A stretch of DNA of 64,000 nt from a virus. Where the stretch lies: IMG/VR virus record IMGVR_UViG_3300028571_002036, positions 20,613-84,612 of that record; one strand, 5' to 3'. The notes beneath the pieces are model-generated. The model was not told the DNA's origin, did no database searches, and saw only the letters and a program-made list of their open reading frames with translations. Position 1 is the stretch's first letter. Every line of letters starts with the position of its first letter. Below, in pieces: positions 1 to 34,369 of this stretch. A program made the position numbers and the translations under genes.

Positions 1-127
1 TTCTGTCTCTGAGAGAAATGACAAATTTATCAACAAAGGAGATAAGAAATTCGATGAAAAAGTTCAAAAAGTTGTATACTGTTCTACAAACAAAGATGAA
101 ATATTAACTTTTCGTTTTTTTAAGTGA
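1..127 (+). CDS. 3' end of an upstream gene (partial)
   Basis: The reading frame that enters at base 2 stays open for 41 codons and stops at TGA 125-127. It encodes a Lys/Asp-rich tail (for example KFINKGDKKFDEK). The start lies outside the window, so no function can be given. It is followed by an AT-rich gap and the next plus-strand virion gene. A second frame is also open to a TAA at about 116, so the choice of frame is a judgement. Confidence 0.45.
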   Translation, partial: SVSERNDKFINKGDKKFDEKVQKVVYCSTNKDEILTFRFFK

Positions 128-8284: not shown

Positions 8285-10099
8285 TTATCTCAATTCTCTC
8301 AAGTCGAACGTTCTAACACCATCAACAGTGATTCTACCATAGAACCTGTTATTTACAACCTTCTTAGCGTATCTGGTCATGATACCCTTGATAGGTGTAA
8401 AGTTGAATGGGTTGTACATTGTTGGAGTGAGTTGTAAAGGTACATATGGAGCGTAGATGTATCCAGTATCCAATAATGAAGTACCTTTGTGTCCTAACAA
8501 CACCTGGTTTGCAGGGAAGTAAGGGTCACGGTAAACTTGGTATCTACCAGCCAATGTTCCAACTCTCTCAATACCCATGTTATATTGGTCTTGCTCAGGA
8601 GCTGCGTTTGATACGTGGAAGTACTCCAAGTCATCAAAGATTGCAGAAACCTCAGAAGATACAACAATCCAGTTTGCGCCTCCTCTAAGAGTTGACTTGT
8701 GGATTTGAGCTGAAATTTGGTTGATTGCAGTGATAAGAGTTTGGTTCCAGTCCTTTTGAGTGTAAGGAGTTGTACCAGCGTTAAATCTCTTCCATCCGTT
8801 GTAGTCCCAACGAAGGTTCCAAGAAGCAGCTTTTCTCAAGTCTCTTAAGATTTCGCGGTCGATTTCAGCAGCCACTTGCTCAGACAACAAAGCTGTCAAT
8901 TCAGCTTCAGCGTCGATGTTGTGGAACGCAGCTACGTCCTGAGCCATTTCAGGTGACCATTGAGCTCTAAGTTTTCTTTCAGTAACCGAAACAGTCACAG
9001 ACTGAAGGTCAAAAGAAACTTCACCAATTTTATCTTCAAATTCAAGATTCTTGTAGATTCTGTAAGTTGCTAAGAACGCGTTGTTGTTAGCGGTTGAAGA
9101 GGAGAATGTTGAACCCGTGTACCCGTCGAGTGATGAATCACCACAAGAAATACAAACAGGAACTTGAAGGTCAACTTCGAGGTAGATTTTACCTTCAGCG
9201 TCACAAACATTGTAGTAAGTACCACCGTCAGTCAAACTATTTGGGAATGCTAAAGGTACATTCTCACCATACTCAACAATACCCTTACCGTATCTTTGTG
9301 TTACAACTCTGAACAAGTAGTTGTTCGAAGTGTTTCCAGAAGTGTAAGCGTTTCCAGCAGCACCACGGATTTGAAGGTCAGTTAAGAATTCTTCGGTATC
9401 CATCGGTTGACCGTTTGGTCCGATAAGTTGACCAGCACCTGCAGATGCAAATCCCGATAACATAATAAGAACTTTTCTGTAGTTGTCAGACGCATATGCA
9501 GAAACAACTAATTGGTCAGCTAGCCAAGCAACTGTTCTTGTTCCACCATCAACTCCTGATGTAACACCTGGAGTTAATGCCGAAAATGAACCTTTAGAGT
9601 AGTCGTAAAGACCTGGAGGGTCTAAAGCAGGTTCGTTACCTTCGTAGAATCTATCGTAAAGGTCTTTTTGTGTGTTATAGTCATAACCACTGTTTGGGGT
9701 TTGACCAGCAGCTGCATTAGGTGCTCCAAAAGGTGCAAAGTGCTCAGTTGTTCCTGGTTGATATGACTGAATGTTTGGTACGAAGTAGAACAACTTACCG
9801 ATAGGAAGGTTCATTGCTTGTACAGAAACGATGTCGTTAGCCAAAAGCTTAGAGAATACTCTCCTTACAATTGGGAATACAACAGTTTCGAATGAACCGG
9901 TATCAGCAGTCGAAGCCGCTTCGTTAATCAAATATGACGCTTGGTTTTCATACAACTGTGCGATATTTTCTTTTAGGTGTCCGTTAAGCCCGTCAAGGAA
10001 ACCTAACTTGTCCCATTTGTTAATTGTATCTTCTTTGATAACTTTAAGGTGCTTAAGACCGATGTTACCAACAAGACCACTTTCTAATAATGCTCCCAT
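8285..10099 (-). CDS. Major capsid protein (T4 gp23-like)
   Basis: 604 residues. Residues 71-100 (FETVVFPIVRRVFSKLL...VQAMNLPIGKLFYF) align with the start of mature T4 gp23, which has VRRxxPxLIxxxxxxVQPMxxPxG. The preceding 60 residues would be the propeptide: YLINE/AAS at residues 56-63 gives an I-x-E cleavage site at E60, close to E65 of T4. The family forms the icosahedral hexamers. It is last in the head operon, followed by a strong terminator. Codon choice looks more constrained than in its neighbours, as expected for a highly expressed gene. Confidence 0.92.
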   Translation of the reverse strand: MGALLESGLVGNIGLKHLKVIKEDTINKWDKLGFLDGLNGHLKENIAQLYENQASYLINEAASTADTGSFETVVFPIVRRVFSKLLANDIVSVQAMNLPIGKLFYFVPNIQSYQPGTTEHFAPFGAPNAAAGQTPNSGYDYNTQKDLYDRFYEGNEPALDPPGLYDYSKGSFSALTPGVTSGVDGGTRTVAWLADQLVVSAYASDNYRKVLIMLSGFASAGAGQLIGPNGQPMDTEEFLTDLQIRGAAGNAYTSGNTSNNYLFRVVTQRYGKGIVEYGENVPLAFPNSLTDGGTYYNVCDAEGKIYLEVDLQVPVCISCGDSSLDGYTGSTFSSSTANNNAFLATYRIYKNLEFEDKIGEVSFDLQSVTVSVTERKLRAQWSPEMAQDVAAFHNIDAEAELTALLSEQVAAEIDREILRDLRKAASWNLRWDYNGWKRFNAGTTPYTQKDWNQTLITAINQISAQIHKSTLRGGANWIVVSSEVSAIFDDLEYFHVSNAAPEQDQYNMGIERVGTLAGRYQVYRDPYFPANQVLLGHKGTSLLDTGYIYAPYVPLQLTPTMYNPFNFTPIKGIMTRYAKKVVNNRFYGRITVDGVRTFDLRELR

Positions 10100-10129: not shown

Positions 10130-11653
10130 TTAGAGTTTATTCATCAAATCCTTAATTCTTAAGAATTGTGGATTCTCATATGTTTTAGACTCAATCAAGG
10201 TTGTAGATGAACCAGAAGTTTTTGCTGTGTTCAACTGTCTTTCAACACTTTCAGAAATATTTTTCGTTTCAGTGTTGGAAAGTTCATCCTTGACAGTTTT
10301 GTAGAGTTGTTTTGATTCTTTAAGTGATTCTACAGAATCAAATCTTCTCAGAATATTTATTTTTTCTTTTTTGGTAGTGGAATGCTCAGTAAACAATCTT
10401 GTAGCATATGCCAAGTTCGAGTTAAAAACAGCAACTTCGTTGAGTTTTTCTCTAAAGACATTAAGAGCCTTTCTGTACTCTTCATTCTTTTCTCTTAACA
10501 AATTTAATTCTACTTCAACAGCTTCTACTTTTACACCTTTATCACCATAAACATAATTTCTGTTATTTGTGATACCTTTTCTTAACCCTCTACCTTCTTT
10601 TGACCCCATACCATAAGTTCTAGCAGCCTCTTTTGTTTCCTCCTTGGTTTCATAGTCTTTCTTGCCAGGATTAGTTTCAGATTTGTCACCTTTGTTACCA
10701 CCGAACTTTCCTTCGTAGTCTTTGTAGTGTCCATCTTTACCTTCACCAGCTTTCTTTTCAACACCGTCTACTTTCTTACGTCTGTATTCGCGTTTCTTAG
10801 AATCTTCTTCCATTTCACCCTCTTTAAATTCAAATTTTGCTTTACCAGTACCCATAGTTTTAGGTCCAGCCTTTTTGTGGTCATCAAATCCTTTTTTTGG
10901 TAAAGTACTGTCGTACTTAAATTTAGGATGACCCATACCTACGCCTTTTGGTTTTACAGTCATTTTAGCTTCTTCAAGGTTATATTCCTCATGTGAGGAT
11001 TCTCCCATCTCTTCCATAGATTCTTCATCCATGTACTCAGAAAGGTCTAATTCTTCCTCATCCATTTCTATCTCATACATGATTTCGTCTTCTTCCATAG
11101 TTTCAGACGACGAATAAAGAGCATCTAAAACAGCATCTAAGTCGGGGTCTTCTTCAACATCAAGTTCATTGAATTCCATTTCTTGTTCTTCCATTTCCAT
11201 CTCTTCCATCATATCCTCTTCCTCATCCATTTCAGACTCGTCAAGTTTTACAATGTATTCAACATCTTCATTATCGTCGGTAATGTGAACCATACCTTCG
11301 TCTTTTACAACTACAATTCCATCTTCAGGTCCCATAGCTTTAAAAGCCTTAATAACTTCATCATCAGACATATCTGTCATATCGATAGTTTCTTCATCCG
11401 AATCAAAATCCATATTGAATTCATTATCAGAATCTTCCATATTATCAACATCGCTATCCATGTCAAAATCCATGTCTAGCTCAGTATCAACTTCAACCTC
11501 ATCTTCTTGTTCGGAAAGAGATTCCTTTACTAACTGACTGATTTCTTCCTTCATTGTAGAAGCAAGTATTCCTTTTGCGTTTTCGGCAATGACTTCTTCA
11601 ACATTTCTCATTTGAATAAGTGCCTCTTCAACTAAATTTTTAGTTTTTTGCAT
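10130..11653 (-). CDS. Acidic prohead scaffold/core protein
   Basis: 507 residues. Residues 45-235 are extremely rich in Asp, Glu and Met, the middle (about 240-370) is Lys/Gly-rich, and the C-terminal 130 residues are helical. It sits between the protease and capsid genes, exactly where T4 has the scaffold gp22, and scaffold cores are typically acidic helical proteins. The composition, not sequence identity, supports the call. A TATTTATA element lies 22 nt upstream. Confidence 0.65.
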   Translation of the reverse strand: MQKTKNLVEEALIQMRNVEEVIAENAKGILASTMKEEISQLVKESLSEQEDEVEVDTELDMDFDMDSDVDNMEDSDNEFNMDFDSDEETIDMTDMSDDEVIKAFKAMGPEDGIVVVKDEGMVHITDDNEDVEYIVKLDESEMDEEEDMMEEMEMEEQEMEFNELDVEEDPDLDAVLDALYSSSETMEEDEIMYEIEMDEEELDLSEYMDEESMEEMGESSHEEYNLEEAKMTVKPKGVGMGHPKFKYDSTLPKKGFDDHKKAGPKTMGTGKAKFEFKEGEMEEDSKKREYRRKKVDGVEKKAGEGKDGHYKDYEGKFGGNKGDKSETNPGKKDYETKEETKEAARTYGMGSKEGRGLRKGITNNRNYVYGDKGVKVEAVEVELNLLREKNEEYRKALNVFREKLNEVAVFNSNLAYATRLFTEHSTTKKEKINILRRFDSVESLKESKQLYKTVKDELSNTETKNISESVERQLNTAKTSGSSTTLIESKTYENPQFLRIKDLMNKL

Positions 11654-12004: not shown

Positions 12005-12721
12005 TTAACGATTTAAATAATCGGTTAATTTTTTCATTAAATCAACTGACTTGTTCATTCCTGAGTCAGAAATTTTTTGATTTTTTTCTTCATCGAGGTT
12101 TTCCTCGTACATTGACCTCTCTTCGGGGGAGTTAAATAGGTAAGCACCAGGGGTTGACGGGGAAGAGACCAAGTCAAAGCAAATTAACTCAAAATCGTCT
12201 TGAACTTCATTTTGTTCTCCTTTTTTTGCCAATGACCCTACACCACGAGATGAAACACCCATTGTCACACCTTGTCTAATGAGGTTTGCGGCGATATCTC
12301 CTTTAGTTGATACAATACCACTCTCGTGGAATCCAGGTGATGTTAGAAGTTTTAATTTACCCATAAGAATGTGACCATCCCACCATATGTCTGTAATAAG
12401 GTGTGATACTCTATCCAAATCAATCAAAGATGATTCTGGGTGATTTAACTCAGAGGTTGATAAACCTTTTTTGATTGCGGTTTTGTATCTATCGGATTCT
12501 CTTTTTAATATTCTTTCAGGGTATACTCTTCCATTTCTATTTGGGACACCATATTTTTGAAGAACAGCATAAAACTCAAATGGGTTTCTATAATCCATTT
12601 GTTTTTGTTCCTTCAAAAAAGATTCGTTAAGTGGGTCAGATGGTGAAATGTAACCTGCGTCCATTTCGATTAAAATCCCCTTACCTGTTTCTCTTGGCCC
12701 AAGAATGCGTAAATCTTTCAT
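12005..12721 (-). CDS. Prohead protease (T4 gp21-like)
   Basis: 238 residues. Residues 91-100 hold the histidine motif (ELNHPESS), residues about 152-162 the serine motif (MGVSSRGVGSL) and a later segment DLVSSPSTPGA, the arrangement seen in phage prohead serine proteases. The enzyme digests the scaffold and trims head proteins at (I/L)-x-E sites. Its position between portal and scaffold is T4-like. Predicted cleavage sites occur in the capsid protein and in several putative internal proteins elsewhere in the window. Confidence 0.88.
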   Translation of the reverse strand: MKDLRILGPRETGKGILIEMDAGYISPSDPLNESFLKEQKQMDYRNPFEFYAVLQKYGVPNRNGRVYPERILKRESDRYKTAIKKGLSTSELNHPESSLIDLDRVSHLITDIWWDGHILMGKLKLLTSPGFHESGIVSTKGDIAANLIRQGVTMGVSSRGVGSLAKKGEQNEVQDDFELICFDLVSSPSTPGAYLFNSPEERSMYEENLDEEKNQKISDSGMNKSVDLMKKLTDYLNR

Positions 12722-12747: not shown

Positions 12748-13200
12748 TTAGTTCATAGTTTTTATTTTTATCTTTTCTTTACTCGAAGTAAATGTGAAGT
12801 AATCATTTTTAATAACACAATCTTTATAAATTTCTCTTATAATTTTTTTTATTGCATCTTTAAGAATTGAACCTTTGAAATCTATTTCTGTTTTTGTAAA
12901 AAGATTTATCTCAAGATTCATAAAAGATTTTTTACCTAATTGAATCCCACTAGTTCTAAGGTCTAAATCAACAATAAATTTTTCTGCGAAAAGTTCTCTA
13001 TTAATACTCTCATAAACACTGTGTTTAACATTTCTTGAAAGACCACCCACTATACGGTCCCAATTTTCCATTTCGACTTTTGGGGCTACCCATGTTTGCA
13101 TGTTTATGTAAAGTGATTTTAGCTGTTTTGAATCTACTGTTCCGTATTGAGTTTTAATTGATTCATATTGGTTAATCTTAACCGTTTTTCCTTTTTTCAT
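12748..13200 (-). CDS. Head-module hypothetical protein
   Basis: 150 residues, basic, mixed alpha/beta, with no motif I recognise. It lies upstream of the prohead protease in the head operon and probably has a head-assembly role. AT-rich gap of 26 bp to the protease gene. Confidence 0.55.
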   Translation of the reverse strand: MKKGKTVKINQYESIKTQYGTVDSKQLKSLYINMQTWVAPKVEMENWDRIVGGLSRNVKHSVYESINRELFAEKFIVDLDLRTSGIQLGKKSFMNLEINLFTKTEIDFKGSILKDAIKKIIREIYKDCVIKNDYFTFTSSKEKIKIKTMN

Positions 13201-13278
13201 TCATATTCAGATTGGAATCTGTTTATTTTTTTATAAATCATAACAAACTTTTACCCCAAATCCAAATATTTCTATTAT

Positions 13279-13464
13279 ATGTTAATAGTACAGGTAGACA
13301 AAAATATTGAAAAAGCACTCAAGATGCTTAAGTCTAAAGTAATTAAAACCAAACAGAATCAGAAACTAAATTCTTTAAAAGAATACCAAAAAAAATCTGT
13401 TAAAATAAGAGCCGAAAAAATCAAAGCTTCTTATGTTCAAAAGTTTAAGAATCAAGAAGAATAG
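13279..13464 (+). CDS. rpsU: bS21-like ribosomal protein
   Basis: 61 residues, very basic. Aligned by eye to Bacteroidota bS21 it keeps the MLI-beta start, NIEKALKxLK, the central basic helix, and the K-x-SV-x-x-RA-x-x-x-KA-x-Y-x-Q...EE end, so it is full length. bS21 sits on the 30S platform; in Bacteroidota it helps cover the anti-Shine-Dalgarno end of 16S rRNA. The gene stands alone on the plus strand inside the minus-strand head operon, and its 3' end overlaps the convergent gene by 20 nt. No Shine-Dalgarno is seen upstream. Likely role: modify or restock host ribosomes during infection. Confidence 0.78.
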   Translation: MLIVQVDKNIEKALKMLKSKVIKTKQNQKLNSLKEYQKKSVKIRAEKIKASYVQKFKNQEE

Positions 13465-14152
13465 ACTCTTCTAATCTTTTTAACTTTACATAATTAACTT
13501 GGTCAAATTTTTCAATCTCAATCCTTTCAATCGTTTCGTTAATTTTGGATTGAATATCCGATTCCTCTTGTTTGTTAAGTAATACTTTCAATTTGTTAAT
13601 TGTTGATTCTTTAAGTGTTGTGTACTCGATTTCTAAATCTTCATTCTTTGATGCCAAAATATAGAATACCTCTTTTTTTGTTGCCTCGTCTAAACTCTCA
13701 ATATATTTTCCAATAGTTTGATTGGCAATCAAAACCATTGATTTTAAAGGAATTTTAGGGGTTTCATTTAAACCTTTTGTGGTTAACATAAGATTATCGA
13801 TTAACATTTTCTTTGACGACAACCTTTCGTGAATATTCACATTTTCAAAATATACCAAATTATCAATATTTTGGTAAATATTTGGGGATTTTTCCCCATT
13901 TTTTGGTAATGAAGTATTTTCTAATAAATGTCTAATTACATTTACAGACTCTTCTAAGAATTCTTTAGCATCGTTTTCAGATAAACCTTGTGGTAAATTA
14001 AGGTCATCATAAATGGAATAAACCTTTGAAAATGATTTATTTTTCAAAACATTATGTTTGAATTCTTTTAATGTTTGCTTGAAAGTAGAGGAATCTTTGT
14101 AAGACTCTACCAAGTTTTTTTCGATAATAGATTTGATTTGTCCGAAAGTCAT
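13445..14152 (-). CDS. Head-module protein downstream of portal
   Basis: 235 residues, helical and charged. N-terminus MTFGQIKSIIEKNLVES forms an amphipathic helix ending in an L-V-E/S site, like the targeting peptides of core proteins. In T4 the portal is followed by small core genes 67 and 68, so this could be a prohead core protein. Family not recognised. Confidence 0.55.
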   Translation of the reverse strand: MTFGQIKSIIEKNLVESYKDSSTFKQTLKEFKHNVLKNKSFSKVYSIYDDLNLPQGLSENDAKEFLEESVNVIRHLLENTSLPKNGEKSPNIYQNIDNLVYFENVNIHERLSSKKMLIDNLMLTTKGLNETPKIPLKSMVLIANQTIGKYIESLDEATKKEVFYILASKNEDLEIEYTTLKESTINKLKVLLNKQEESDIQSKINETIERIEIEKFDQVNYVKLKRLEESILLDS

Positions 14153-14179: not shown

Positions 14180-17005
14180 TTAGGAATTTAACAACTTATC
14201 TAACTCGTCTTCTATTTTACCTAAACTTTGTTGTGCAATACCTAAATTTAAAAACTGATTACCATACAAACCAGTTTCTATCAAAATATTCATATCTTTA
14301 TTTTGTGTTGATTCTGGCGTAATTTCACCCTCTTCAGGGGTTGTTGCACCCAAGTCTGGTGTTTCACCAGCTAAGTCACCACCAAGGTCTCCACCAAGGT
14401 CCGCACCAACATCAAAACCACCACCACCAAACGCAGCAGCGGCTGGTTCAGAGGTTTCACCAGGAGGTGCTTGTGGCGCCCCTTCACCAGGTTTATTTCC
14501 ATACAACTTATCAAGTTGGTCAAACAATCCTGTTTTAGAGATTACTGTCGGAGTGTTTTTTAATTCCTCACCAATGGCTCTTTCCATTCTCTGTTGTAGA
14601 AGGTCAGTTCTGATTTCATCATCTGACCAATTGAAAATGTGTTTCTTAGCCCAAGTAGATGAAGCTGGTTGAATACCATTTCCGGGGTCTGAAACTAAAT
14701 CACGATACAAAAGAACTTTTTCTTTCCATATATCAACCTTCAGTAAGTCAGCTTGTGTTGATGGATTTGTAAGACCTAAAGTAAAATTAGAAATCTCTTC
14801 TTCAAAACCAAGTAGAAATAAATGGATAATTGCAACCTTATTAAGTTCTTGCAACATCGACTTTTGAATTCTATTAATGGTTCTCGCAAATCGGATATCC
14901 ATCAATGCTAAAGTTTTACCGTCACCGACAACTTCTTCAAAACCTAAAAAGGCCTTAGGAATTCTAAGTGCAGTAACAAGTTTTTTCTGAATGTATTCAA
15001 TGTCAGCAATCTCTGAAAGATTCTGTGCTCCAGGCAAAGTTTCAATTGGAGATGGTTGTGCTGGGTCTCTAACAGGAATAAAGAAATCTTGGTCTACAGC
15101 CATTTGGTTAAACCTCATATCAACATTGCCTGTTTTGGAATCAACAATTTGTTCCCTTTTGAACTTGTTAGCAACACGTTGTACATAAGCCTCGACATCA
15201 TCATCGTTCATGTTTCCAACATAAACTTTGAAAATTCTTCTTTCAGGGGCTCGTGAGGTACGATAAATTAACATCGCATCTTCAGATAACAAAAGTTGTT
15301 TCCAAATACGGCGAGATTTTTCCAACATTGAGGTACCATATGGGAGTTTTCTGTCGTCCCCTAATAATCTGAAGTGAGCAATTTCCCAAGTTTGAAATTC
15401 CATATTTTGGGTTTTCCAAGTAAACCTTAACCCTTTGTCTTCAGTATCATTTTTTGTGACACCAACCGATGCATTTCTTGTTGACAAACCTTGTTCAAAT
15501 CTCTCAATTTCGATGTTAGGTAGTTGTTGACATCCAACAACACCTTTTTCAGGGTCTAATCTCATATAAACGAAATTATCACCGTACTTACAGGTGTTTC
15601 TTGTCCACATGGGTAGATTAGTATTGATGTCTAAAGAATTATTAAATAAATCTGATAAAACGGATTTAATTCTTTTTGATTCAGAATAAATTTGAAGAAT
15701 TTGACCATCTTCGTTAGGTGTGGTAGATTCTTCAGCGTAGATATCTAAGGCCGCAGAAATTTCCGGAGTATTATGTGAAAAAATAGTGTCGGTGGCAAAA
15801 TTTTTATAACCAGGAACTGTCAAGTCATACACAGGAATAACACCATAAGGTTCAATAGATTCAATTTTGTGATTTAAATTGATTACATCACCTTTTGATT
15901 TTGCTGTGGAATATTTTGACTTTTCAATACCATAAGCATCTAAAAATGTTTGCCAATCAGAATATCCTGAATTAACAACTTCTCTTTGTATTTTTCTATA
16001 TGAAACATTTAATTTTGTTGCAGTTTTTTTAAGAGTTTTTTCACCTCTAGCAGCTTCAATAATATTGTCAAAACCAATTGTAAAATACGATGGATTGTTT
16101 ACACCAGAACGCTTACCATCCCAGGACATTTTACCTTTTCTTCTCGCAACCTCAGACATTTTTTCCCTGAATTTGGGATTAGACCATAATTTTTCGTTGT
16201 TCAATTTTGCATGATAAGCCCTATGTTCAGAGATTTTCATTATTTGAAGATTTTCTGGTTGATTATTTTTACCATTAAAATCAATATGATGAACTTCTTC
16301 GTCTTTTTCTATCGAAATGTCATAAAACCATTGTGCAATTAAATTATGTTCGGAAATCCAACCATTATGCCCTTCATTAGAATTACAGGTATAAATCCAA
16401 TTATACTTTTCATTATTGTAAAAAGATTTACGATAAAATGGCATCATTGAATCACCTTTTCGTAAATTCATCACTCTTTCAAAAGAACCATCCCGTTTCA
16501 TTAATTGATGTTCCCATGTTGCAATTATAAATGAACCATCATCAAAGGTGACTTTATATGTCATTTCATCCCTTGTGTAATGAGCATTTCTTGCTTTTGC
16601 TGGTACAACCTTTTTTAAATTGTGGTCATAAGAGTATGTTATAAATTCGTAGTTTATCCCTTTATCTGCAAGCTCCTTAATGGTAATAAATCCATCAGGC
16701 GTGGCTATTTTAGTATCACCATGAATACAATATTCCATAGATTCGTAATCGTAATACGAAGCCAAACGATTTGGTTCATAATATACGGCTTGAGTGTAGA
16801 GGTTATTTTCAACTTTAGCAAATTGATTTGCTAAATAAAATGATTGTTTGGCTTGAAGTTTTTCCCTTTCGTATTCAGTTTTATCAGTAGTTCTGAGTAA
16901 TTCCTTTTTATCTAACTTGTAAACAGGAAAATCTTGATTCATCAAGGCATTAGGACCCAAAGCCCTTGTTAACCTCTGCCAAACCGTTAAATTTCTATTT
17001 TTCAT
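14180..17005 (-). CDS. Portal vertex protein (T4 gp20-like) with in-frame intein
   Basis: 941 residues, of which residues 93-412 are an intein and the remaining 621 form the portal. The extein junction falls inside the conserved portal segment MEY/TPEISAALDIYAEEST. The later sequence (IEYIQKKLVTALRIPKAFLGFEE, GDGKTLALMDIRFARTI) is typical of gp20. The C-terminal tail is Gly/Pro/Ala-rich and acidic. The portal is the dodecameric DNA gate and nucleates prohead assembly. It lies directly downstream of the terminase, as in T4. A TATTTATA element lies 31 nt upstream of the ATG. Confidence 0.92.
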   Translation of the reverse strand: MKNRNLTVWQRLTRALGPNALMNQDFPVYKLDKKELLRTTDKTEYEREKLQAKQSFYLANQFAKVENNLYTQAVYYEPNRLASYYDYESMEYCIHGDTKIATPDGFITIKELADKGINYEFITYSYDHNLKKVVPAKARNAHYTRDEMTYKVTFDDGSFIIATWEHQLMKRDGSFERVMNLRKGDSMMPFYRKSFYNNEKYNWIYTCNSNEGHNGWISEHNLIAQWFYDISIEKDEEVHHIDFNGKNNQPENLQIMKISEHRAYHAKLNNEKLWSNPKFREKMSEVARRKGKMSWDGKRSGVNNPSYFTIGFDNIIEAARGEKTLKKTATKLNVSYRKIQREVVNSGYSDWQTFLDAYGIEKSKYSTAKSKGDVINLNHKIESIEPYGVIPVYDLTVPGYKNFATDTIFSHNTPEISAALDIYAEESTTPNEDGQILQIYSESKRIKSVLSDLFNNSLDINTNLPMWTRNTCKYGDNFVYMRLDPEKGVVGCQQLPNIEIERFEQGLSTRNASVGVTKNDTEDKGLRFTWKTQNMEFQTWEIAHFRLLGDDRKLPYGTSMLEKSRRIWKQLLLSEDAMLIYRTSRAPERRIFKVYVGNMNDDDVEAYVQRVANKFKREQIVDSKTGNVDMRFNQMAVDQDFFIPVRDPAQPSPIETLPGAQNLSEIADIEYIQKKLVTALRIPKAFLGFEEVVGDGKTLALMDIRFARTINRIQKSMLQELNKVAIIHLFLLGFEEEISNFTLGLTNPSTQADLLKVDIWKEKVLLYRDLVSDPGNGIQPASSTWAKKHIFNWSDDEIRTDLLQQRMERAIGEELKNTPTVISKTGLFDQLDKLYGNKPGEGAPQAPPGETSEPAAAAFGGGGFDVGADLGGDLGGDLAGETPDLGATTPEEGEITPESTQNKDMNILIETGLYGNQFLNLGIAQQSLGKIEDELDKLLNS
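15770..16729 (-). mobile_element. Mini-homing intein (HINT + HNH) in the portal gene
   Basis: 320 codons. Block A starts with the nucleophile Cys (CIHGDTKIATPDG). Block B holds TWEHQL. An HNH endonuclease lies in the middle (VHHIDFNGKNNQPENLQIM), followed by a helix-turn-helix-like segment (KTATKLNVSYRKIQREV). Block F is VYDLTVPGYKNFAT, and block G ends in His-Asn (FSHN) followed by Thr as the +1 residue. All splicing residues are present, so it should be active. Insertion in the most conserved part of an essential gene is typical of inteins. Confidence 0.93.
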
Positions 17006-17047: not shown

Positions 17048-18808
17048 TTACCTTCCAAATAACCAACCATACTTTTGATAATCATTTCGGGTAGCCTCAT
17101 AATTTTTAGAGTGATTCATCCCCGAATGATTAAATTGTGGTAAAGAAGGATTAAAATATTCGGATTTTTCTTTATTTTCGGTAACAATAGTAGACCAAGA
17201 ATCCAACATTGCTTTTGTATGGTTTACCACCTTAACCAATGAGGGGAATGCCGCTTCCGCAACATAAGTCGCCATTGCAATTGACATAATACAATCATCA
17301 TGGTGACCTTTTTGGTGGTCAGGTCGACCATTGATATAAATAAAAGTCCCCATTTCATTTACCAGCCTACTCGACCTTACTTTAAATTCATGACGGAGGG
17401 ATTCTTCAAAGGAAGCGATGATTTGAACCCTTTTATTGTTAAAATTGATTCCAGGTATTTTTTCTTTAACTCTTGGGTCATATTTCCATTTATTTGACAT
17501 GTCAACCCCATCATAGAAAAAATTTTCATAACCCATTTCTTGAAGTTTTCTTGCCGTTGCAACCCCCATACCACCAGTCAAATCTATAACACACAAGGCA
17601 CTATACATAATACCCCACTTATATGCAATTTCGGCTAATGTATCGGGTGGTAATTTTCCAACAAATTCTAATACTTGTTCTTTTTCATCAAAATCAATAA
17701 TTACAAAACAAGAAAAGTCTTCAGAATCTCCCCGAGAAACATCTATACCCATGACATATTTGTGACCATTTACAGGTTCTTTCCATATCCATAACTGTCC
17801 ACCTATTAATTTGGCACTTGGTTCCTTAATATCATTTTTTTGGATATTCTGTAAAAGTTCAGAATCAAATACATTGTCACCTGAACCTAAAAAGTTACAT
17901 TCTAATTCTTGTGCAACTTTTCTTCTATCATATTTTAGTTTTTTAACCATACTTTCCAACCAAGATGAGCATGGTTTATAACCGTCTTCAATATATTTGT
18001 GTAAAGTATCTAAATTTCTTTCTTTTCTATTTTCAAGTGATAAATCAATAATACTATCTAATGTGTATTCATGTTTGTTAAGAAGGTAATGAACTAAGTC
18101 TTTAGTTTTAACCATATACAAATCTTTGGTATATCTAGGGTCACGATACCAATACATTTCAGTGATTTTGAAATCATTCATACCACGAAGCGCTTGGTCA
18201 TAAATTTCATAGTAAATTGCATCAAAACCATTAGGGGTTGAAATTACAACCACTTTACCTCCTGTAGAAAGAGATGCCATACAAGCCGCCCAAAAATCAC
18301 TATCGGCCTCAATAAAAGCTGCTTCGTCAAAAATTAATGTTGTGGGGGTGTAACCACGAAGTGCATCTTTTGAAGTTGCAACAGCTTTTACTTCACATCC
18401 GTTTGATAATTTAAAGTGACGAGCGGAATTTTTTTCAGGTGCAAACCCTATTCCGACCCAACTTGGCCATTGTTCGGTGAATCCACGGATTTTGTTTGCA
18501 AATTCCACCGAAGTATCTAATTTATTTGCAATTATAAGAACTTTCTCGGGTTTTTCTTTTCTTGCAAATGCTAGTCGTTTACTTGCCCAAGCGGCGGTAA
18601 CTGTCGATACCCCCGCTTGACGATACTTCAGGGCAATATTTTCATTGTACTCCTCATAATCCTCGACAAGTTGAACTTGGTCTTGAAACAATTCCAAAGG
18701 TACATAACGGGAAACCGTATTATCGTAAGTTTGTAAATAAGTCTTCAGCGCATACGGAGTGCTTTTCATGCACTTTTTATACTCAATAATAACTTGTTCT
18801 TTTGTCAT
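17048..18808 (-). CDS. Terminase large subunit (T4 gp17-like)
   Basis: 586 residues. ATPase domain: Walker A-like KYRQAGVST (about 62-70) and Walker B LIFDEAAF (about 155-162), then the coupling motif VVISTPNG. Nuclease domain: GIDVSRGDSEDFS (about 352) and the C-terminal acidic GHHDDCIMS. This is the packaging motor that cuts and pumps DNA through the portal encoded next to it. Length and motif order match gp17. The start is 6 nt from the stop of the upstream gene. Confidence 0.95.
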   Translation of the reverse strand: MTKEQVIIEYKKCMKSTPYALKTYLQTYDNTVSRYVPLELFQDQVQLVEDYEEYNENIALKYRQAGVSTVTAAWASKRLAFARKEKPEKVLIIANKLDTSVEFANKIRGFTEQWPSWVGIGFAPEKNSARHFKLSNGCEVKAVATSKDALRGYTPTTLIFDEAAFIEADSDFWAACMASLSTGGKVVVISTPNGFDAIYYEIYDQALRGMNDFKITEMYWYRDPRYTKDLYMVKTKDLVHYLLNKHEYTLDSIIDLSLENRKERNLDTLHKYIEDGYKPCSSWLESMVKKLKYDRRKVAQELECNFLGSGDNVFDSELLQNIQKNDIKEPSAKLIGGQLWIWKEPVNGHKYVMGIDVSRGDSEDFSCFVIIDFDEKEQVLEFVGKLPPDTLAEIAYKWGIMYSALCVIDLTGGMGVATARKLQEMGYENFFYDGVDMSNKWKYDPRVKEKIPGINFNNKRVQIIASFEESLRHEFKVRSSRLVNEMGTFIYINGRPDHQKGHHDDCIMSIAMATYVAEAAFPSLVKVVNHTKAMLDSWSTIVTENKEKSEYFNPSLPQFNHSGMNHSKNYEATRNDYQKYGWLFGR

Positions 18809-23368: not shown

Positions 23369-24121
23369 TTAATCTACCAATTTTACTTCAACTGATAATT
23401 CTTTGTCTGTTTGACGACTAACAGTATTATAGAGTTTTTCCAACAATCCTGACCTACGAAGGTACTTAAACACCAAATTTTCATAGGAATATTCCCCCTC
23501 TTTTTCGAGTCCCGACTTACGATAATCTTTTAATTTTTTTTTCAGTTTCTCAACTTTTTCTTCGTTGGCTTTGAGTCCTTCTTTTTTGATGTTGGTAATA
23601 AGATTTTCTATTTTGTCTTTCCAACCATCGATTTTGGTCGTTAGAACACCTCTTTCGAGTTGTGGTTTTTCTTTTGAGGGTTTAGAAATCCACTCATCAT
23701 TTAACACCGAATATACTCCCGAGGCAAAATGCATCTCCTGAGAATCTTGTGGGTATAGTTCAACTTCGTAACCAAAAATTTTAATATCGTGTTTGTCGTT
23801 AAATATCTGTTTTTTAAGACCAAATAAATCTCTGTAAAGTTGAGATTGTTTTCCGAATTGTTTGTAATCGATAATAAGATGTAGGTCAAAGTCTGAATAT
23901 TCTGACCAGTTGTAGTTTGATAGACTACCTGTTAGGACTACATCTTCAACTTCCAAGTCATCTATTAATGTATCGCCAAATGCTTCGGCAATTTTCATAA
24001 GAGCGTCTCTTACTTTTGGTTTAATCACCGCTTCTGAGGCATCGTCATAGTTTTCCCATACCTTTGGGTTAAGGGTGTCTCTAACTGTGAAGCTCTGAAG
24101 TATGGTTGATAGTTGGGCCAT
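23369..24121 (-). CDS. Nucleotidyltransferase-fold protein
   Basis: 250 residues. The segment [24 protein letters not shown] (about residues 63-86) is the GS-x(n)-SDxD signature of the DNA polymerase-beta-type nucleotidyltransferase superfamily. A third acidic strand could be EVELYP. Charged coiled helices fill the C-terminus. Members transfer NMPs to nucleotides, RNA ends or proteins; the substrate here is unknown. A TATTTATC element sits exactly 4 nt before the ATG. Confidence 0.75.
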
Positions 24122-25110: not shown

Positions 25111-27111
25111 ATGAACGACACATTAGGCGACGACGATAAGACACTCTCAAGGAAGAAACCTACCTCCGAATCGGGTACTCCCGTATTGGATAACTTTTCT
25201 CGTGACTTGAACAAATTGGCAGAACAAGGAAAACTTGACCCAGTGATAGGTCGGGAGAAAGAGATTATTCGTATTGCTCAAATCCTTTCCCGTAGAAAGA
25301 AGAACAACCCTATTATCTTGGGGGAACCAGGCTCAGGTAAAACCGCTTTGATTGAGGGATTGGCGTCTCTTATTATCAATGGAGAATGTCCCAAAAATCT
25401 TCTTGACAAGCGTATTGTCAATTTAGACCTCACCGCTGTGGTGGCAGGGACAAAGTATCGTGGTCAGTTCGAGGAGCGTCTAAAGGTTATCCTTGAGGAA
25501 CTCTCCAACAATCCCAACATCATTGTCTTTATCGATGAGATACACACATTGATTGGTTCAGGTAACTCAACAGGTAGTTTAGACGGTTCAAACATCTTTA
25601 AACCCGCACTTGCTCGTGGAGAAATTCAATGTATCGGTGCAACTACCTTGGATGAGTATCGTAAGTCATTTGAAAAAGACGGAGCTTTGGAGCGTAGATT
25701 CCAAAAGGTCATTGTAGACCCCTCATCAGTTGAGGAGACCATCCAAATTCTCACTCACATTAAAGACCGATACGAATCGTTCCACAAAGTGGCATACTCT
25801 CAAGAAGTAATCGAACTTTGTGTGAAGCTCGCAGACCGATATATCACCGACCGTGAGTTCCCCGACAAAGCCTTTGACATTTTGGATGAAGTTGGTGCTC
25901 GTAGTCAAACCGAGCAAAAGATTCCTGAAGTAATTGAAGAACTAAAACTCAAGGCTTCGGAAATCAAACAACAAAAGATGGATGTTGTAAAGAAACAGAA
26001 CTACGAAGAAGCGGCAGCACTAAGGGACAAGGAGCGTAAAATCCTTGCTAAACTCGAAGAGGAAAAGCGGAAATACGCGGAAGAATCCTCAACAACTCGT
26101 ATCCCTATCTCGGTGGAACAAGTCTACGATGTTGTTTCCAATATGACCAAAATTCCTGTGAGTAAAATGTCAGTTGACGATATTAACGCTCTTATTAATA
26201 TGGACAAATCCCTTATGGAAAAGGTAATTGGTCAAGACGATGCGGTGTCTATGATTGTCAAATCAATCCGTCGTAACCGAATCGGAATCAAAGACCCTAA
26301 CCGTCCTATTGGTTCATTTATCTTCTTGGGTTCAACAGGTGTGGGTAAGACCCACTTAGCAAAACAGATTGCTAAGGAGATGTTCGGGTCAGAGGATGCG
26401 TTGATTCGAGTCGACATGAGTGAATATCAAGAGAAGCACACACTGTCTCGTTTGGTGGGAGCACCCCCAGGATATGTCGGTTACGAAGAAGGTGGACAGC
26501 TTACCGAACAGGTAAAAAACAAACCATATGCGGTTATCCTATTCGATGAGGTTGAGAAAGCCCACAAGGACATTTTCTCTATTCTCCTTCAGATTCTTGA
26601 TGATGGTCACGCAACCGATTCCCTCGGTCGAAAAATCAACTTCAAGAACACCCTTATCATCATGACCACCAACCTCGGAGTCAAGAAACTTCAAGACTTT
26701 GGAGCTGGTATCGGGTTCTCCTCTAACAAGTACTCAAACGAGGAGGCTAAAAAACAAATCTTGATGAAGGAAATGAAGAACTTCTTTTCCCCCGAGTTCC
26801 TAAACCGTATCGATGACACCATTGTGTTCCAAACACTCACAAAGGAGAACATCGAGAAGATTGTAGGACTAGAACTTAGTAAACTCTCCAAGCGACTAGG
26901 TCACATGAAGTACAAAGTGGTGATGGACCCCACCCTCACAGAGTACATTGCAAAAGTCGGTTTCGATGATGAATACGGAGCTCGTCCAGTAAAACGAGCC
27001 ATCCAAGACAAAATCGAAGATTACCTATCGGAACTTATCCTAATAGGTAAACTTAAAGAAAATCGAAAATACACCCTAAAGGTGGTAAATGAAGAGGTGA
27101 AAATCTCTTAA
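25111..27111 (+). CDS. clpC: ClpC-type AAA+ unfoldase lacking the N-domain
   Basis: 666 residues against about 820-850 for cellular ClpC. First AAA+ module: Walker A GEPGSGKT (71-78), Walker B VFIDEIHT (139-146). A UVR motif lies in the middle domain (about 286-310). Second module: GSTGVGKT (407-414), ILFDEVEKAH (476-485), sensor regions and the C-terminal D2 domain. The tripeptide IGF (534-536) sits where ClpA/ClpC carry the ClpP-docking loop. The N-terminal Clp repeat domain is missing, so adaptor use should differ. The codons look less AT-rich than in nearby genes. It probably feeds the phage ClpP at 52082. Ends in a strong terminator. Confidence 0.92.
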   Translation: MNDTLGDDDKTLSRKKPTSESGTPVLDNFSRDLNKLAEQGKLDPVIGREKEIIRIAQILSRRKKNNPIILGEPGSGKTALIEGLASLIINGECPKNLLDKRIVNLDLTAVVAGTKYRGQFEERLKVILEELSNNPNIIVFIDEIHTLIGSGNSTGSLDGSNIFKPALARGEIQCIGATTLDEYRKSFEKDGALERRFQKVIVDPSSVEETIQILTHIKDRYESFHKVAYSQEVIELCVKLADRYITDREFPDKAFDILDEVGARSQTEQKIPEVIEELKLKASEIKQQKMDVVKKQNYEEAAALRDKERKILAKLEEEKRKYAEESSTTRIPISVEQVYDVVSNMTKIPVSKMSVDDINALINMDKSLMEKVIGQDDAVSMIVKSIRRNRIGIKDPNRPIGSFIFLGSTGVGKTHLAKQIAKEMFGSEDALIRVDMSEYQEKHTLSRLVGAPPGYVGYEEGGQLTEQVKNKPYAVILFDEVEKAHKDIFSILLQILDDGHATDSLGRKINFKNTLIIMTTNLGVKKLQDFGAGIGFSSNKYSNEEAKKQILMKEMKNFFSPEFLNRIDDTIVFQTLTKENIEKIVGLELSKLSKRLGHMKYKVVMDPTLTEYIAKVGFDDEYGARPVKRAIQDKIEDYLSELILIGKLKENRKYTLKVVNEEVKIS

Positions 27112-31427: not shown

Positions 31428-31499
31428 GGGCCCATAGGTAAAGGGATATACCCTCTCACTTCTAATGAGATATTTCAGGTTCGAATCCTGGTGGGCCTA
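31428..31499 (+). tRNA. tRNA-Arg(UCU)
   Basis: Acceptor GGGCCCA/TGGGCCT, anticodon arm TCTCA-CTTCTAA-TGAGA with anticodon UCU, T-arm CAGG-TTCGAAT-CCTG. All arms fold; CCA is not encoded. Confidence 0.92.
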
Positions 31500-31507
31500 C
31501 AAAAGTT

Positions 31508-31684
31508 ATGAAATCAAGTCAAGAAGACATAAAAAAAACCCGATACAATGGTGTGGCACCTGAGGGCTATACCTTGCTTCGAAATGAAGTTTTAGCAGAA
31601 CTAAAAAATTTTGATAATTGGAAAGCTTGGAAAAACGACGAAATTTCCCTCTACGACCTCGATAAGACGGATATTTCGGAATAG
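31508..31684 (+). CDS. Small hypothetical protein
   Basis: 58 residues from the ATG 8 nt after tRNA-Arg; charged, with Trp/Tyr (GVAPEGYTLLRNEVLAEL). It would be co-transcribed with the tRNA. No family recognised. Confidence 0.5.
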   Translation: MKSSQEDIKKTRYNGVAPEGYTLLRNEVLAELKNFDNWKAWKNDEISLYDLDKTDISE

Positions 31685-31726
31685 AATTCATAATTTTGAT
31701 ATATTTAAACCTAAACCCCCCTTTCT

Positions 31727-31855
31727 ATGAATCCTGAAATTCTCAACACCACTGATATCCTCTTCCAAAGCGGTCAAATTATTGACAAAGCTCAATGTGA
31801 GATTTATCTTTGTGAATGGGATAATATCCATGGTGATATTGTCTTGTTTGTATAA
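31727..31855 (+). CDS. Very small hypothetical protein
   Basis: 42 residues (MNPEILNTTDILFQSG start). Between two tRNA genes on the same strand; stops 7 nt before tRNA-Gly. Coding is plausible but unproven. Confidence 0.35.
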   Translation: MNPEILNTTDILFQSGQIIDKAQCEIYLCEWDNIHGDIVLFV

Positions 31856-31862
31856 ATAAAAA

Positions 31863-31935
31863 GCGGTAATAGCTCAGTTGGTAGAGCACGTTCCTTCCAA
31901 GTACGGGGTCGCAGGTTCGAATCCTGTTTACCGCT
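31863..31935 (+). tRNA. tRNA-Gly(UCC)
   Basis: Acceptor GCGGTAA/TTACCGC, D-arm GCTC/GAGC, anticodon loop CTTCCAA (UCC), T-arm CAGG-TTCGAAT-CCTG. One mismatch in the anticodon stem. CCA is not encoded. Confidence 0.92.
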
Positions 31936-31938
31936 CAA

Positions 31939-32139
31939 AGTAGACCTTCAAAAGGGCCCTTCCGTATTTATACGGCTTGTTGGGCCCGGGTCTATTTTAA
32001 AATAAACAGTACCTCGAGGCTTCCCGTAAGAACAGCTCTAAATTCTGAGGTCTTATAGTGATACAAGTGAATAACCCAAGGCATAAGATACAATCACACC
32101 CCCAACCTCTCCTTGGAGGACGCTTCAAGGATGTTGGGG
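31939..32139 (+). ncRNA. Structured non-coding RNA candidate between two tRNAs
   Basis: Four consecutive stem-loops with no good ORF. Helix 1: TAGACC (31941-31946)/GGTCTA (31989-31994), continued by GGGCCC/GGGCCC and CCGTA/TACGG. Helix 2: ACCTC (32011-32015)/GAGGT (32047-32051). Helix 3: GTGAT (32058-32062)/ATCAC (32093-32097). Helix 4: CCCCAAC/GTTGGGG (32100-32139), with an inner CTCC/GGAG and a following TTTT that could terminate. It does not match RNase P, tmRNA, 4.5S or 5S RNA. Confidence 0.5.
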
Positions 32140-32144
32140 TTTTA

Positions 32145-32220
32145 GCCGAAGTAGCTCAGTGGTAGAGCAGCTTTCGTAAAAGATGGTGTGACGCGATAGG
32201 TTCGATTCCTGCCTTCGGCT
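32145..32220 (+). tRNA. tRNA gene with non-canonical anticodon arm
   Basis: Acceptor GCCGAAG/CTTCGGC, D-arm GCTC-AGTGGTA-GAGC and T-loop TTCGATT are normal. The 27 nt between the D- and T-arms do not form a standard 5-bp stem with 7-nt loop; CGT is the only triplet with U at position 33, and its stem is poor. It may be a decayed tRNA or one needing processing. Identity left open. Confidence 0.55.
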
Positions 32221-32238
32221 CTTAATTACTCAATAAAC

Positions 32239-32246
32239 TATTTATT
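32239..32246 (+). promoter_or_regulatory. TATTTATT element, 4 nt from ATG
   Basis: TATTTATT ends 4 nt before the ATG at 32251, which supports that start over the in-frame TTG at 32245. Confidence 0.45.
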
Positions 32247-32250
32247 GATT

Positions 32251-32883
32251 ATGAACAGTAGATTATTGAAAGAAATTTCTGAGATTAAAAAACAAATCTC
32301 TTTATTGGAAGACTATGTAAGAGTGGATGAAACAGGATTTTCATTCATTACTACCGATGATGATGCAACCAAAACTGACAAAATCTCAAGGGCTTTGTTA
32401 CAAGATATCAACACCGCCGCTAAAAGAGCTGGTGTTAAAGCGGTTATAACTACCGCCAGCTCGGGACACTCTGAAAAAACTATTAGTGGAACTCGTAGTA
32501 GACATCCCGATAATAACGCGGTTGATATTTCAAATATCAATGGAGAAGCCGCTCAGGGTGCGAGTTCAAACAACCCAGGTAACCCAAAATTCAAAAAACT
32601 TGGTGATGCTTTGGTGAATGAATTGGTTGATATGGGTTATTCTTTAAATGTCGAGAGTGGAAAAGATAAGGCAGTTTTATGGCAAACAAATACAGGTGGA
32701 AACCACTACAATCACATCCACATTTCAAATATTACGGATACACCAAGCGAAGAGTCAGAAACTGAAGATACCGAAACTACGACTGCCGGTGTCAGAGATG
32801 GTCAGTTTCAACAGGAAAAACCATCTTTTGATATCTCACAAACTTTAAAATCATTCCAAAAGTTCAAAGATATTTTCAAGTGA
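32251..32883 (+). CDS. M15-like peptidoglycan peptidase
   Basis: 210 residues. The zinc-site pattern of M15/D-Ala-D-Ala peptidases is visible: SRHPDNNAVDIS (His and Asp ligands, about 83-94) and NHYNHIHIS (about 150-158). These enzymes cut peptide stems of peptidoglycan. The N-terminal 20 residues form a helix ending L-L-E/D, like a capsid-targeting peptide, so it could be a virion-borne entry enzyme rather than the lysis endolysin. The C-terminus is Thr/Glu-rich. Confidence 0.72.
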   Translation: MNSRLLKEISEIKKQISLLEDYVRVDETGFSFITTDDDATKTDKISRALLQDINTAAKRAGVKAVITTASSGHSEKTISGTRSRHPDNNAVDISNINGEAAQGASSNNPGNPKFKKLGDALVNELVDMGYSLNVESGKDKAVLWQTNTGGNHYNHIHISNITDTPSEESETEDTETTTAGVRDGQFQQEKPSFDISQTLKSFQKFKDIFK

Positions 32884-32930
32884 CTTGTGGAAGGTGAGGG
32901 ATTTGCTCTATCAAGTAAGTTTTCTGTGAC

Positions 32931-33095
32931 TTAAATCATATCAGGATTATCACCATCATTATCCTTTATCGAATTCAATATACTTGGTAATGCAAGTGCC
33001 AACAAAGACCACCAAGGATTCTCAAAGTGGTAAACAATATATCCAATTAATAGAATAAATGCGAGTCCCAAAACAATTATCGCTAATTCTTTCAT
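32931..33095 (-). CDS. Small membrane protein
   Basis: 54 residues from the ATG at 33095. One or two transmembrane segments (ELAIIVLGLAFILLIGY; WWSLLALALPS) and an acidic tail. Start overlaps the upstream stop (ATGA), so it is coupled to the preceding gene. Function unknown. Confidence 0.6.
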   Translation of the reverse strand: MKELAIIVLGLAFILLIGYIVYHFENPWWSLLALALPSILNSIKDNDGDNPDMI

Positions 33096-33382
33096 TGTTC
33101 CCAATCTGAAAATTTCAAACCCCACATCAAACCAATCATAGCCATTTCCCTTTCCGCAAGGTGTTTGTTGATTCTAAGATTTTTTCTTATAAATTCAGTA
33201 CCCCACAACTGCCATTCATCATTTTGAGCTTTGGTCATTTCCCATTCCTGATACCAAGAATCTTTTCTGTCTTTAATATCCTCGTAAGAAATATTATGAC
33301 CTGCAATATAAAACATTTTGTTGATTAGTTCTTCAACAACTTTCTGATTTTTTTCCTGTTTTGATAATCGCTTCTTTGTCAT
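33092..33382 (-). CDS. Hypothetical phage protein
   Basis: 96 residues, charged, Trp-rich (SWYQEWEMTKAQNDEWQLW). The stop overlaps the membrane-protein start, and the start overlaps the stop of the HAD gene by one base. No family recognised. Confidence 0.55.
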   Translation of the reverse strand: MTKKRLSKQEKNQKVVEELINKMFYIAGHNISYEDIKDRKDSWYQEWEMTKAQNDEWQLWGTEFIRKNLRINKHLAEREMAMIGLMWGLKFSDWEQ

Positions 33383-33972
33383 TACATTAAAAATTTTATA
33401 ATTTTATCCTTTATACCTGATTGCTTTATACCTTCCCAAGACCTTGGTGTTTGAACAAAATTACTTAAGCCTGGTTTGTTATCTGAACCATCTCTGTCAG
33501 AAAATTGAGCACCCAAAAAATCTATAGACATATCCAAATCATCAACCGCAACCCAATGAGTAATCTCAGGATGAGATTCCAACCAATGTTGAATTTCCAT
33601 GAATCTCTCTAATTCCAAATCAGCCCTGAATCTTAGTTTAGCCCATTCAGATGGAAATAAATCTTTAAACATTCCTGTGGTATCTATTGGTCTTTTAATA
33701 ACACCCTGTGATAAGTAATAATCTCCAAGTTCCTCGAGTGTTGCGTGAAACCTCCAATCTGAACTCACCACATATTCTGCGCCTGTTTTCTCAAGAATTT
33801 TGTTGAAAACCTTAATCGCTTTTGGGTCGAAGTTATCAAATCGAACATATACAGGTAAGTCATTTGCTGATGTACCCATAGTTCTACCCTCTTTGATTTG
33901 TTTCTTCCTACGAGAACCCCAGTTCTCTGCCAAGCAGATTACACCATCATTATCTAAGAATATTACTTTCAT
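33382..33972 (-). CDS. HAD-superfamily protein (Swiss-army-knife RNA-repair type)
   Basis: About 196 residues from the ATG at 33972, chosen because the HAD motif I then lies at the N-terminus (MKVIFLDNDGVI). Motif II is VVSSDWR, and the C-terminal acidic motif is AVDDLD. The pattern resembles the HAD domain found in RNA-repair fusion proteins, which would act as a 3'-phosphatase or similar. A role in healing tRNAs cut by host defences is plausible but inferred. Confidence 0.68.
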   Translation of the reverse strand: MKVIFLDNDGVICLAENWGSRRKKQIKEGRTMGTSANDLPVYVRFDNFDPKAIKVFNKILEKTGAEYVVSSDWRFHATLEELGDYYLSQGVIKRPIDTTGMFKDLFPSEWAKLRFRADLELERFMEIQHWLESHPEITHWVAVDDLDMSIDFLGAQFSDRDGSDNKPGLSNFVQTPRSWEGIKQSGIKDKIIKFLM

Positions 33973-34132
33973 CTTGAATTGATTTGTAGTGAGATTCATA
34001 ATATGTGAGTGGCATCAAATGTCCCTTTTCACCTGATATTGCTTCTTTGAGTGTTGAATAATGAAACACTTGGTCATTGGAAACAACAACCCAATTTTTT
34101 TGGTTTGCTAAGTTTGGTCTAGTTAAATACAT
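33950..34132 (-). CDS. Small hypothetical protein
   Basis: 60 residues from the ATG at 34132 (MYLTRPNLANQKNWVVV). A TATCTTTG promoter lies 7 nt upstream, excluding the earlier in-frame start. Overlaps the HAD gene by 23 nt. Function unknown. Confidence 0.5.
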   Translation of the reverse strand: MYLTRPNLANQKNWVVVSNDQVFHYSTLKEAISGEKGHLMPLTYYESHYKSIQDESNILR

Positions 34133-34139
34133 AATACAA

Positions 34140-34147
34140 CAAAGATA
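34140..34147 (-). promoter_or_regulatory. TATCTTTG -7 element
   Basis: Minus-strand TAnnTTTG match 7 nt before the ATG at 34132; it probably drives the four-gene minus-strand unit down to 32931. Confidence 0.5.
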
Positions 34148-34303
34148 CAACAAAAATTACTACCAAACTAATAAAGGCGATTTTATATCCTCCTTGAATT
34201 TTGTGTTTTGACCTACCTTGCCAATCCTCGGGGTTCCAAGATTCTTTCCAATTGTCAGAATATTTGTTTCTCATATTTTTTTTAGTTATTACAGAATGAC
34301 TTG

Positions 34304-34369
34304 TAGCCCGACGGGGAATCGAACCCCTGAGTAAAAACCAGGTGCTCTATCTATTTGAGCTAATATCCC
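34304..34369 (-). pseudogene. Shortened tRNA-Lys(UUU)-like gene
   Basis: 66 nt. D-arm GCTC/GAGC and anticodon arm CCTGG-TTTTTAC-TCAGG (anticodon UUU) fold well and a T-loop TTCGATT is present. The variable loop and 5' T-stem are missing and the acceptor strands (GGGATAT and TCGGGCT) do not pair. A TATATTTG promoter lies at 34382-34389. Probably a tRNA relic or an unusual minimal tRNA. Confidence 0.5.

Follow-up and report, generated by a model that had tools for sequence, protein, structure and literature searches.

What does a phage do with a ribosomal protein gene that sits on the opposite strand in the middle of its head genes, and how is that gene started? The question is raised by a 64,000-nucleotide stretch of viral DNA (hereafter the window; positions 20613-84612 of an 84,612-bp IMG/VR record), in which an earlier note had pointed to a gene for bS21 and proposed that a phage copy could keep ribosomes in the state that prefers phage mRNAs that are leaderless or lack a Shine-Dalgarno (SD) sequence. 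bS21 is the commonest ribosomal protein in phages (PMC6375957, PMC9723584). Chen et al. (2022; PMC9723584), who studied 47 phages and 14 more from IMG/VR and place bS21 phages in clades a-e, described a bS21 gene that lies on the reverse strand and is flanked by two hypothetical genes, in the midst of terminase (TerL), portal, protease and major capsid protein (MCP) genes, with Bacteroidetes hosts, Tyr54 or another aromatic residue kept, and late expression; they proposed substitution of the phage protein into ribosomes. Our phage resembles theirs in gene order, opposite strand, an aromatic residue at 54 and low GC, and nothing basic differs, although their group has genomes of about 293-331 kb and ours is an 84.6-kb piece. 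The gene, its place, its strand, Tyr54 and the idea of a ribosome takeover were thus already published, and the general idea behind the interpretation in the earlier note is prior art (Chen 2022; McNutt 2023). In the passages on which we draw, Chen et al. do not discuss promoter, start region, the SD of the phage gene or inteins (PMC9723584), and McNutt et al. speculate on phages without analysing phage start regions (PMC9976891). What we add, all of it in silico, is a missing SD switch, a predicted leaderless late start and a candidate sigma factor.

A bS21 gene set against the head block

The open reading frame at 13279-13464 (+) is intact, with 61 codons and a stop. It matched the Pfam family Ribosomal_S21 (PF01165) with an E value of 3.9e-7, residues 4-54 of the protein aligning to positions 2-54 of the 55-position profile, and the profile search that the earlier note had named as a check therefore came out in its favor, at 30.1 bits versus a curated cut-off of 27. 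The product is short and basic (61 aa, computed pI 10.1, 17 K/R versus 6 D/E), its best solved relative was Flavobacterium johnsoniae bS21 (7jil_z, E 2.5e-4), and its Tyr52 aligned with Tyr54 of that protein. This was the single Ribosomal_S21 match in the 84,612-bp record. A PHROGs scan returned no bS21 family for the protein; a sub-threshold terminase match in PHROGs was taken as chance.

The gene stands alone on the plus strand, and the T4-like head block around it is encoded on the minus strand. This block comprises the terminase large subunit (17048-18808; phrog_2, E 1.5e-40), the portal protein (14180-17005; phrog_213, E 1.4e-61), orf235 (13445-14152), orf150 (12748-13200), a prohead protease of type S77 (12005-12721; E 1.6e-23), a 507-aa ORF (10130-11653) and the major capsid protein Gp23 (8285-10099; PF07068, E 1.8e-73). 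The 3' end of bS21 overlaps the convergent orf235, which occupies a prohead-core position, by 20 nt, and a divergent gap of 78 bp (13201-13278) separates bS21 from orf150. The 507-aa ORF, a scaffold by position only, between protease and MCP, had no family match in the Pfam and PHROGs profile searches. We modeled orf150 and orf235 as possible bS21 partners. The orf150 model (mean pLDDT 88.8) had no clear PDB match, with a best E value of 0.011 and a best VIA-align Z of 7.4, a level called common; the helical orf235 model (mean pLDDT 81.9, pTM 0.51) had good matches solely to uncharacterised viral proteins, and no function was concluded for either. The portal gene carries an in-frame, intein-like insert of 320 residues (15770-16729 (-), residues 93-412) that is missing from the portal of relative L010; it begins with Cys, ends with His-Asn, is followed by Thr and contains an HNH endonuclease match.

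A scan of IMG/VR viral contigs with bS21 yielded 99 relatives, of which 80 were kept. bS21 was present at all 80 fetched loci, and every matching neighbor lay on the strand opposite to it: orf235 at 79 loci, orf150 at 77, the protease at 75, the portal at 72, the 507-aa ORF at 62, TerL at 53 and MCP at 49, the lower counts reflecting that many contigs end inside the head block. Codon differences in bS21 were mostly synonymous (22 synonymous versus 9 non-synonymous against L014, 8 versus 4 against L010), which, together with the arrangement shared by 80 of 80 loci, argues against a chance ORF. The frame is a confirmed, genuine bS21 gene, and the claim that it lies opposite in strand inside the head operon held: the PF01165 score is above the cut-off, the neighbors are on the minus strand and the relatives repeat the arrangement. 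Searches among GenBank phages gave five distant bS21 records (42.9-46.0% identity) and no relatives of orf150 or orf235, so the synteny rests on IMG/VR. A viral contig search with F. johnsoniae bS21 as query returned one locus, L187.

The conserved place between genes in prohead-core position and the overlap with orf235 might suggest that bS21 acts in head assembly or packaging within the virion, and not on ribosomes, and virion packaging was raised as a possibility by Chen et al. (PMC9723584). The protein keeps its family residues and the Tyr that contacts rRNA, and the gene has its own strand and its own promoter-like box, which makes a role in the head improbable. The aromatic residue is Tyr in all 81 proteins of the clade. 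This C-terminal Tyr region is kept while the stretch of residues 18-31 is replaced, being strongly different from host bS21 (KSKVIKTKQNQKL-type in the phage versus KRKFDKTGTVRQL-type in the host). A search within Bacteroidetes found the nearest bacterial bS21 at 48% identity; the phage probably infects Bacteroidota, with which the SD avoidance described below and Tyr54 fit.

Start regions without the extended SD of rpsU

In F. johnsoniae, rpsU, the gene for bS21, is autoregulated: ribosomes lacking bS21 recognise an extended SD (McNutt 2023; PMC9976891). bS21-deficient ribosomes are less active on SD-less mRNA, and the bS21 Tyr stacks on A1534 of the 16S tail (7JIL; PMC9976891). The phage copy shares with Bacteroidia rpsU/bS21 the protein family, Tyr54 and the SD-less mRNAs around it. 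We computed how the 20 nt before each start pair with the 13-nt 16S tail, using ViennaRNA duplex and tail letters that we supplied ourselves. Flavobacterium-type rpsU starts had a median of -19.8 kcal/mol, and all 79 reached -13 or lower (80 loci fetched, with L148 dropped for having no start on its contig; the query was a Flavobacterium protein, so the scan gave mostly Flavobacterium, and these hosts are close to each other). Unlike them, the bS21 starts of the phage clade had a median of +1.8 kcal/mol, and 0 of 81 reached -7. The 78-bp intergenic region of the window has no SD by pairing energy, and the phage bS21 thus lacks the pairing stronger than -13 kcal/mol that marks an SD-autoregulated rpsU.

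To what extent does this separate phages from bacteria? In a wider phylum sample, 16 of 30 bacterial bS21 starts were at or below -13 kcal/mol and 23 of 30 at or below -7, the sample being the best-scoring 30 loci of 61 genomes and including lineages without Tyr54. A search for the bacteria nearest to the phage protein matched 50 of 296 genomes; nine of the 12 loci fetched were at or below -17 kcal/mol, and the other three had no SD, so SD absence is not unique to phages. Five of the genomes sampled from Flavobacterium's phylum (G048, G099, G114, G129 and G209) had two bS21 matches each.

On the phage side, L001, which is the window itself, was also dropped from the pairing rows. For a comparison outside the clade, 79 loci were reduced to 58 distinct ones, and setting apart 17 as the window's clade by a marker of our own, KSKVIKTKQ, left 41. 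Among these other phage bS21 genes, 0 of 41 reached -13 kcal/mol and 6 of 41 reached -7 (-7.0 to -12.1). Five records (four huge phages and L187) included one bS21 start at -12.1 kcal/mol, which belongs to a huge phage; the other three huge phages do not have such an SD, and the fifth GenBank record, H2, was left out because its match was that of H1. As a rule, then, phage bS21 genes do without the extended SD, though there are exceptions. One exception is L256:1501-1698 (LR756501.1, a 735-kb phage), which encodes the identical bS21 protein as the 152-kb contig L262; the SD of these genes is AAAGGAGG, at -12.1 kcal/mol. In the 45 kb around the -12.1 gene, 11 of 62 genes reached -7 compared to 5 of 62 in the mock region.

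SDs are avoided across phage genes in all four contigs tested (G000, G001, G004 and G006). Mean pairing was -0.97, -1.17, -1.14 and -0.44 kcal/mol, respectively, versus -1.92, -2.10, -2.24 and -1.68 for a mock region further upstream (Mann-Whitney p = 0.012, 0.0009, 0.006 and 0.005), with gene calls from a simple longest-ORF script, so that some starts are wrong. The same avoidance has been reported for Flavobacteriales (McNutt 2023; PMC9976891). Phage starts were enriched in A at -11 to -14 and at -3 and depleted of G, and this A-rich profile fits the known Bacteroidia start signature (PMC9976891).

These data bear on the reading that phage bS21 sets the 16S tail free and thereby allows translation of phage mRNAs with an SD. 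A few phage genes do look SD-like, such as 23369-24121 (-12.6 kcal/mol); SDs are, however, avoided across phage genes, all 81 proteins retain the Tyr, and the SD-like run of this very gene lies upstream of a box and may not be transcribed. Release of the anti-SD is therefore very unlikely. The run in question, before 23369-24121 (-), reads AAGGAGG, is also found in G001 and lies just upstream of a TATTTATC box; in G003 and G004, the orthologous genes show the box at -12 and lack the run.

A box at a fixed distance from the start codon

In place of an SD, the bS21 gene is preceded by the promoter-like box TATTTCTA (13267-13274 (+)), of TATTT(N)TA type, at -12 to -5 of the ATG. Among the 22 distinct upstream regions of the clade, 20 have it, 15 exactly (TATTTNTA at -12 or -14) and 5 as a close variant, and it is absent from 2. 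Across six phage contigs, TATTTNTA occurred at -13 to -11 from gene starts 6, 9, 6, 4, 9 and 4 times, versus shuffle means of 0.22-0.45 and maxima of 2-4, the count for G004 (4) being equal to its shuffle maximum. The broader form TATTTATW was found, over 753 starts, 48 times at -13 to -11, 3 times at -18 to -14, 74 times at -30 to -19 and never at -10 to -8. As G000, G001 and G003 are related and their counts not independent, we also used a subset with one contig for each of three lineages (G001, G004 and G006; 429 starts), where the numbers were 22 at -13 to -11, 1 at -18 to -14 and 45 at -30 to -19. Eleven other AT-rich motifs occurred at most 7 times at -13 to -11 in this subset, compared to the 22 occurrences of the box, which was found just once at -13 to -11 of 5708 internal ATGs. 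The distance is also conserved among orthologs: the 121-aa gene at 154-519 has its box at -11 in five contigs and at -13 in the sixth. Several boxes directly follow a hairpin and a T-run, as judged by eye; this, together with the fixed orientation, is as expected for promoters. Within the head block, the boxes lie at -21 (protease), -27 (orf235) and -30 (507-aa ORF), compared to -12 for bS21.

The -7 element of F. johnsoniae promoters spans T-12 to G-5 from the transcription start (PMC6847099) and that of F. psychrophilum -12 to -5 (PMC9723704). Leaderless mRNAs make up 5.5% in F. psychrophilum (PMC9723704), so such hosts can use them, and a TA-like signal about 10-12 bp before the start has been published as a mark by which leaderless genes can be recognised in silico (PMC3160421). 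The bS21 box, about 12 bp upstream, agrees with this mark in position and is not an exact TANNNT. By the Flavobacterium geometry, transcription from the -12 class of boxes would begin with the A of the ATG. We thus predict that the bS21 mRNA is leaderless, its 5' end lying on or right beside the AUG. That hardly any box lies at -18 to -14 would then reflect an avoidance of very short leaders. Within open-licence PMC literature, we recognised no work on the start regions of phage bS21 genes or on leaderless genes of Bacteroidota phages.

The earlier note had also stated that many starts leave no room for an SD. This stands for some starts, including that of bS21, where the box lies so near that one expects hardly any leader or none; "many" is an overstatement, as the box is at the start in 38 of 753 cases with TATTTNTA and in 48 of 753 with TATTTATW, and tight spacing (5 nt or less at 19 of 55 same-strand starts in the window) does not by itself exclude an SD.

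In more distant relatives (L050, L063, L075, L078, L079 and others), a GTCAAAA element precedes the bS21 start by about 35 nt; it was not seen in the window's clade and could belong to either of the divergent promoters. Elsewhere in the window, a gene at 45337-46041 (-) with a DUF6878 match (E 2.1e-7) keeps a box at -12 or -11 in four contigs, and nine tRNAs were called in 31428-45305, the anticodon being odd or undetermined in two.

A box before head genes raises the question of which factor reads it. PF04542 matched one orthologous ORF of 248-252 aa in all six contigs, each time below the cut-off (E 0.004-0.024). In the record it lies at G000:19973-20719, mostly left of the window, and its 3' end occupies window positions 1-107 (+), followed by the 121-aa gene with the box at -11. 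It matched phrog_234 (late sigma transcription factor) with an E value of 0.013, and hhalign, comparing profiles with seven gp55 proteins, aligned the same segment (P 4e-4, but a probability of only 35%). Pfam and PDB alone gave nothing firm, and the solved-structure search no relative. The likeness to sigma region 2 is suggestive only and makes this ORF a gp55-like sigma candidate. The T4 late promoter consensus is TATAAATA. As a late box in the present contigs, TATAAATA was rejected, for it is not concentrated near starts, whereas TATTTATA is. The phage system would share with T4 a gp55-like candidate and, ahead of head genes, a short AT-rich box that has no clear upstream element; it differs in the box itself (TATTTATA versus TATAAATA) and in having one class of boxes 3-5 nt from the ATG.

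A proposed late bS21 outside the rpsU feedback

The explanation that we favor, at a probability of roughly 0.55, is that a late, feedback-free bS21 of Bacteroidota type keeps 30S subunits SD-blind and active on the SD-less mRNAs of the phage. The protein would be made late, judging by the RNA data of Chen et al. (2022) on relatives, and would replace or replenish host bS21 on 30S subunits. There, its Tyr would hold the 16S 3' tail in the platform pocket and render ribosomes blind to SDs, and such replete ribosomes would stay good at SD-less initiation on phage mRNAs. The bS21 mRNA would itself begin on or right beside the AUG, driven by a box of phage type that is also found before head genes. 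Since the gene has no extended SD, its synthesis would be independent of bS21-less ribosomes and its output should stay up while ribosomes fill; replete ribosomes would meanwhile hold down translation of host rpsU, and independence from an SD may matter once the rpsU mRNA of the host is gone. The interpretation in the earlier note is supported in part, namely by the bS21 family match, by Tyr in 81 of 81 proteins, by SD pairing weaker than that of the mock region in four of four contigs and by the boxes that closely precede some starts; a preference for leaderless mRNAs brought about by bS21 is a conjecture.

Several observations stand against this explanation, among them the three starts without an SD in the 12 nearest bacterial loci and the strong divergence of residues 18-31 from host bS21. 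Moderate SDs precede six of the 41 other bS21 genes from phages, one of them at -12.1 kcal/mol, and the one viral bS21 that has been tested, from pelagiphage HTVC008M, enters E. coli 70S ribosomes and lowered their in vitro translation to about 5% (Mizuno et al. 2019; PMC6375957). That protein is phage-encoded like ours, and entry into 70S ribosomes is shown for the HTVC008M protein. It is, however, of alphaproteobacterial type, from an alphaproteobacterial host, and is not known to involve a Bacteroidota anti-SD pocket. The drop to about 5% (PMC6375957) would also be expected if phage bS21 served as a translation shut-off, leaving the ribosomes of the host inactive or inefficient on its own mRNAs. 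The proteins and ribosomes in that test came from distant hosts, though; phage mRNAs resemble those of the host, so both would be hit, and the late expression of bS21 is rather late for a shut-off, which we accordingly consider improbable.

The divergence of residues 18-31 points to more than simple replacement. Chen et al. (2022) suggested a specialised ribosome, in which the altered N-terminal helix and loop of phage bS21 favor phage over host mRNAs. The replaced stretch next to a kept C-terminal Tyr region is in line with this, and the same divergence is seen in their proteins (PMC9723584); yet phage and host mRNAs both have SD-less, A-rich starts, leaving no obvious mRNA feature to select. 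We hold such selectivity to be a tentative possibility. It is compatible with the SD-blind, feedback-free bS21 favored here: the changed residues may add selectivity, as Chen et al. suggest, and both readings may be true.

A further step, speculative though worth considering, would be that a feedback-proof, leaderless, late bS21 takes over the circuit by which the host senses its ribosomes, with SD-dependent rpsU switched off, all ribosomes phage-marked and the pool locked in the SD-blind state. If this were true, saturated 30S subunits would mean that host bS21 is no longer made, and leaderless or SD-less phage mRNAs would depend on the SD-blind state. For Flavobacterium, a specialised ribosome that depends on bS21 has been shown to exist (PMC9976891), and a phage bS21 gene that lacks the SD switch opens a simple way to ask whether phages exploit the rpsU circuit. 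With the position-locked box, in turn, leaderless late genes of this phage group could be predicted. Finally, the window encodes a large ATP-dependent protease-like protein at 25111-27111 (+) (phrog_4871, E 1.7e-237); that a phage protease might remove host bS21 is a speculation found in McNutt 2023 (PMC9976891).
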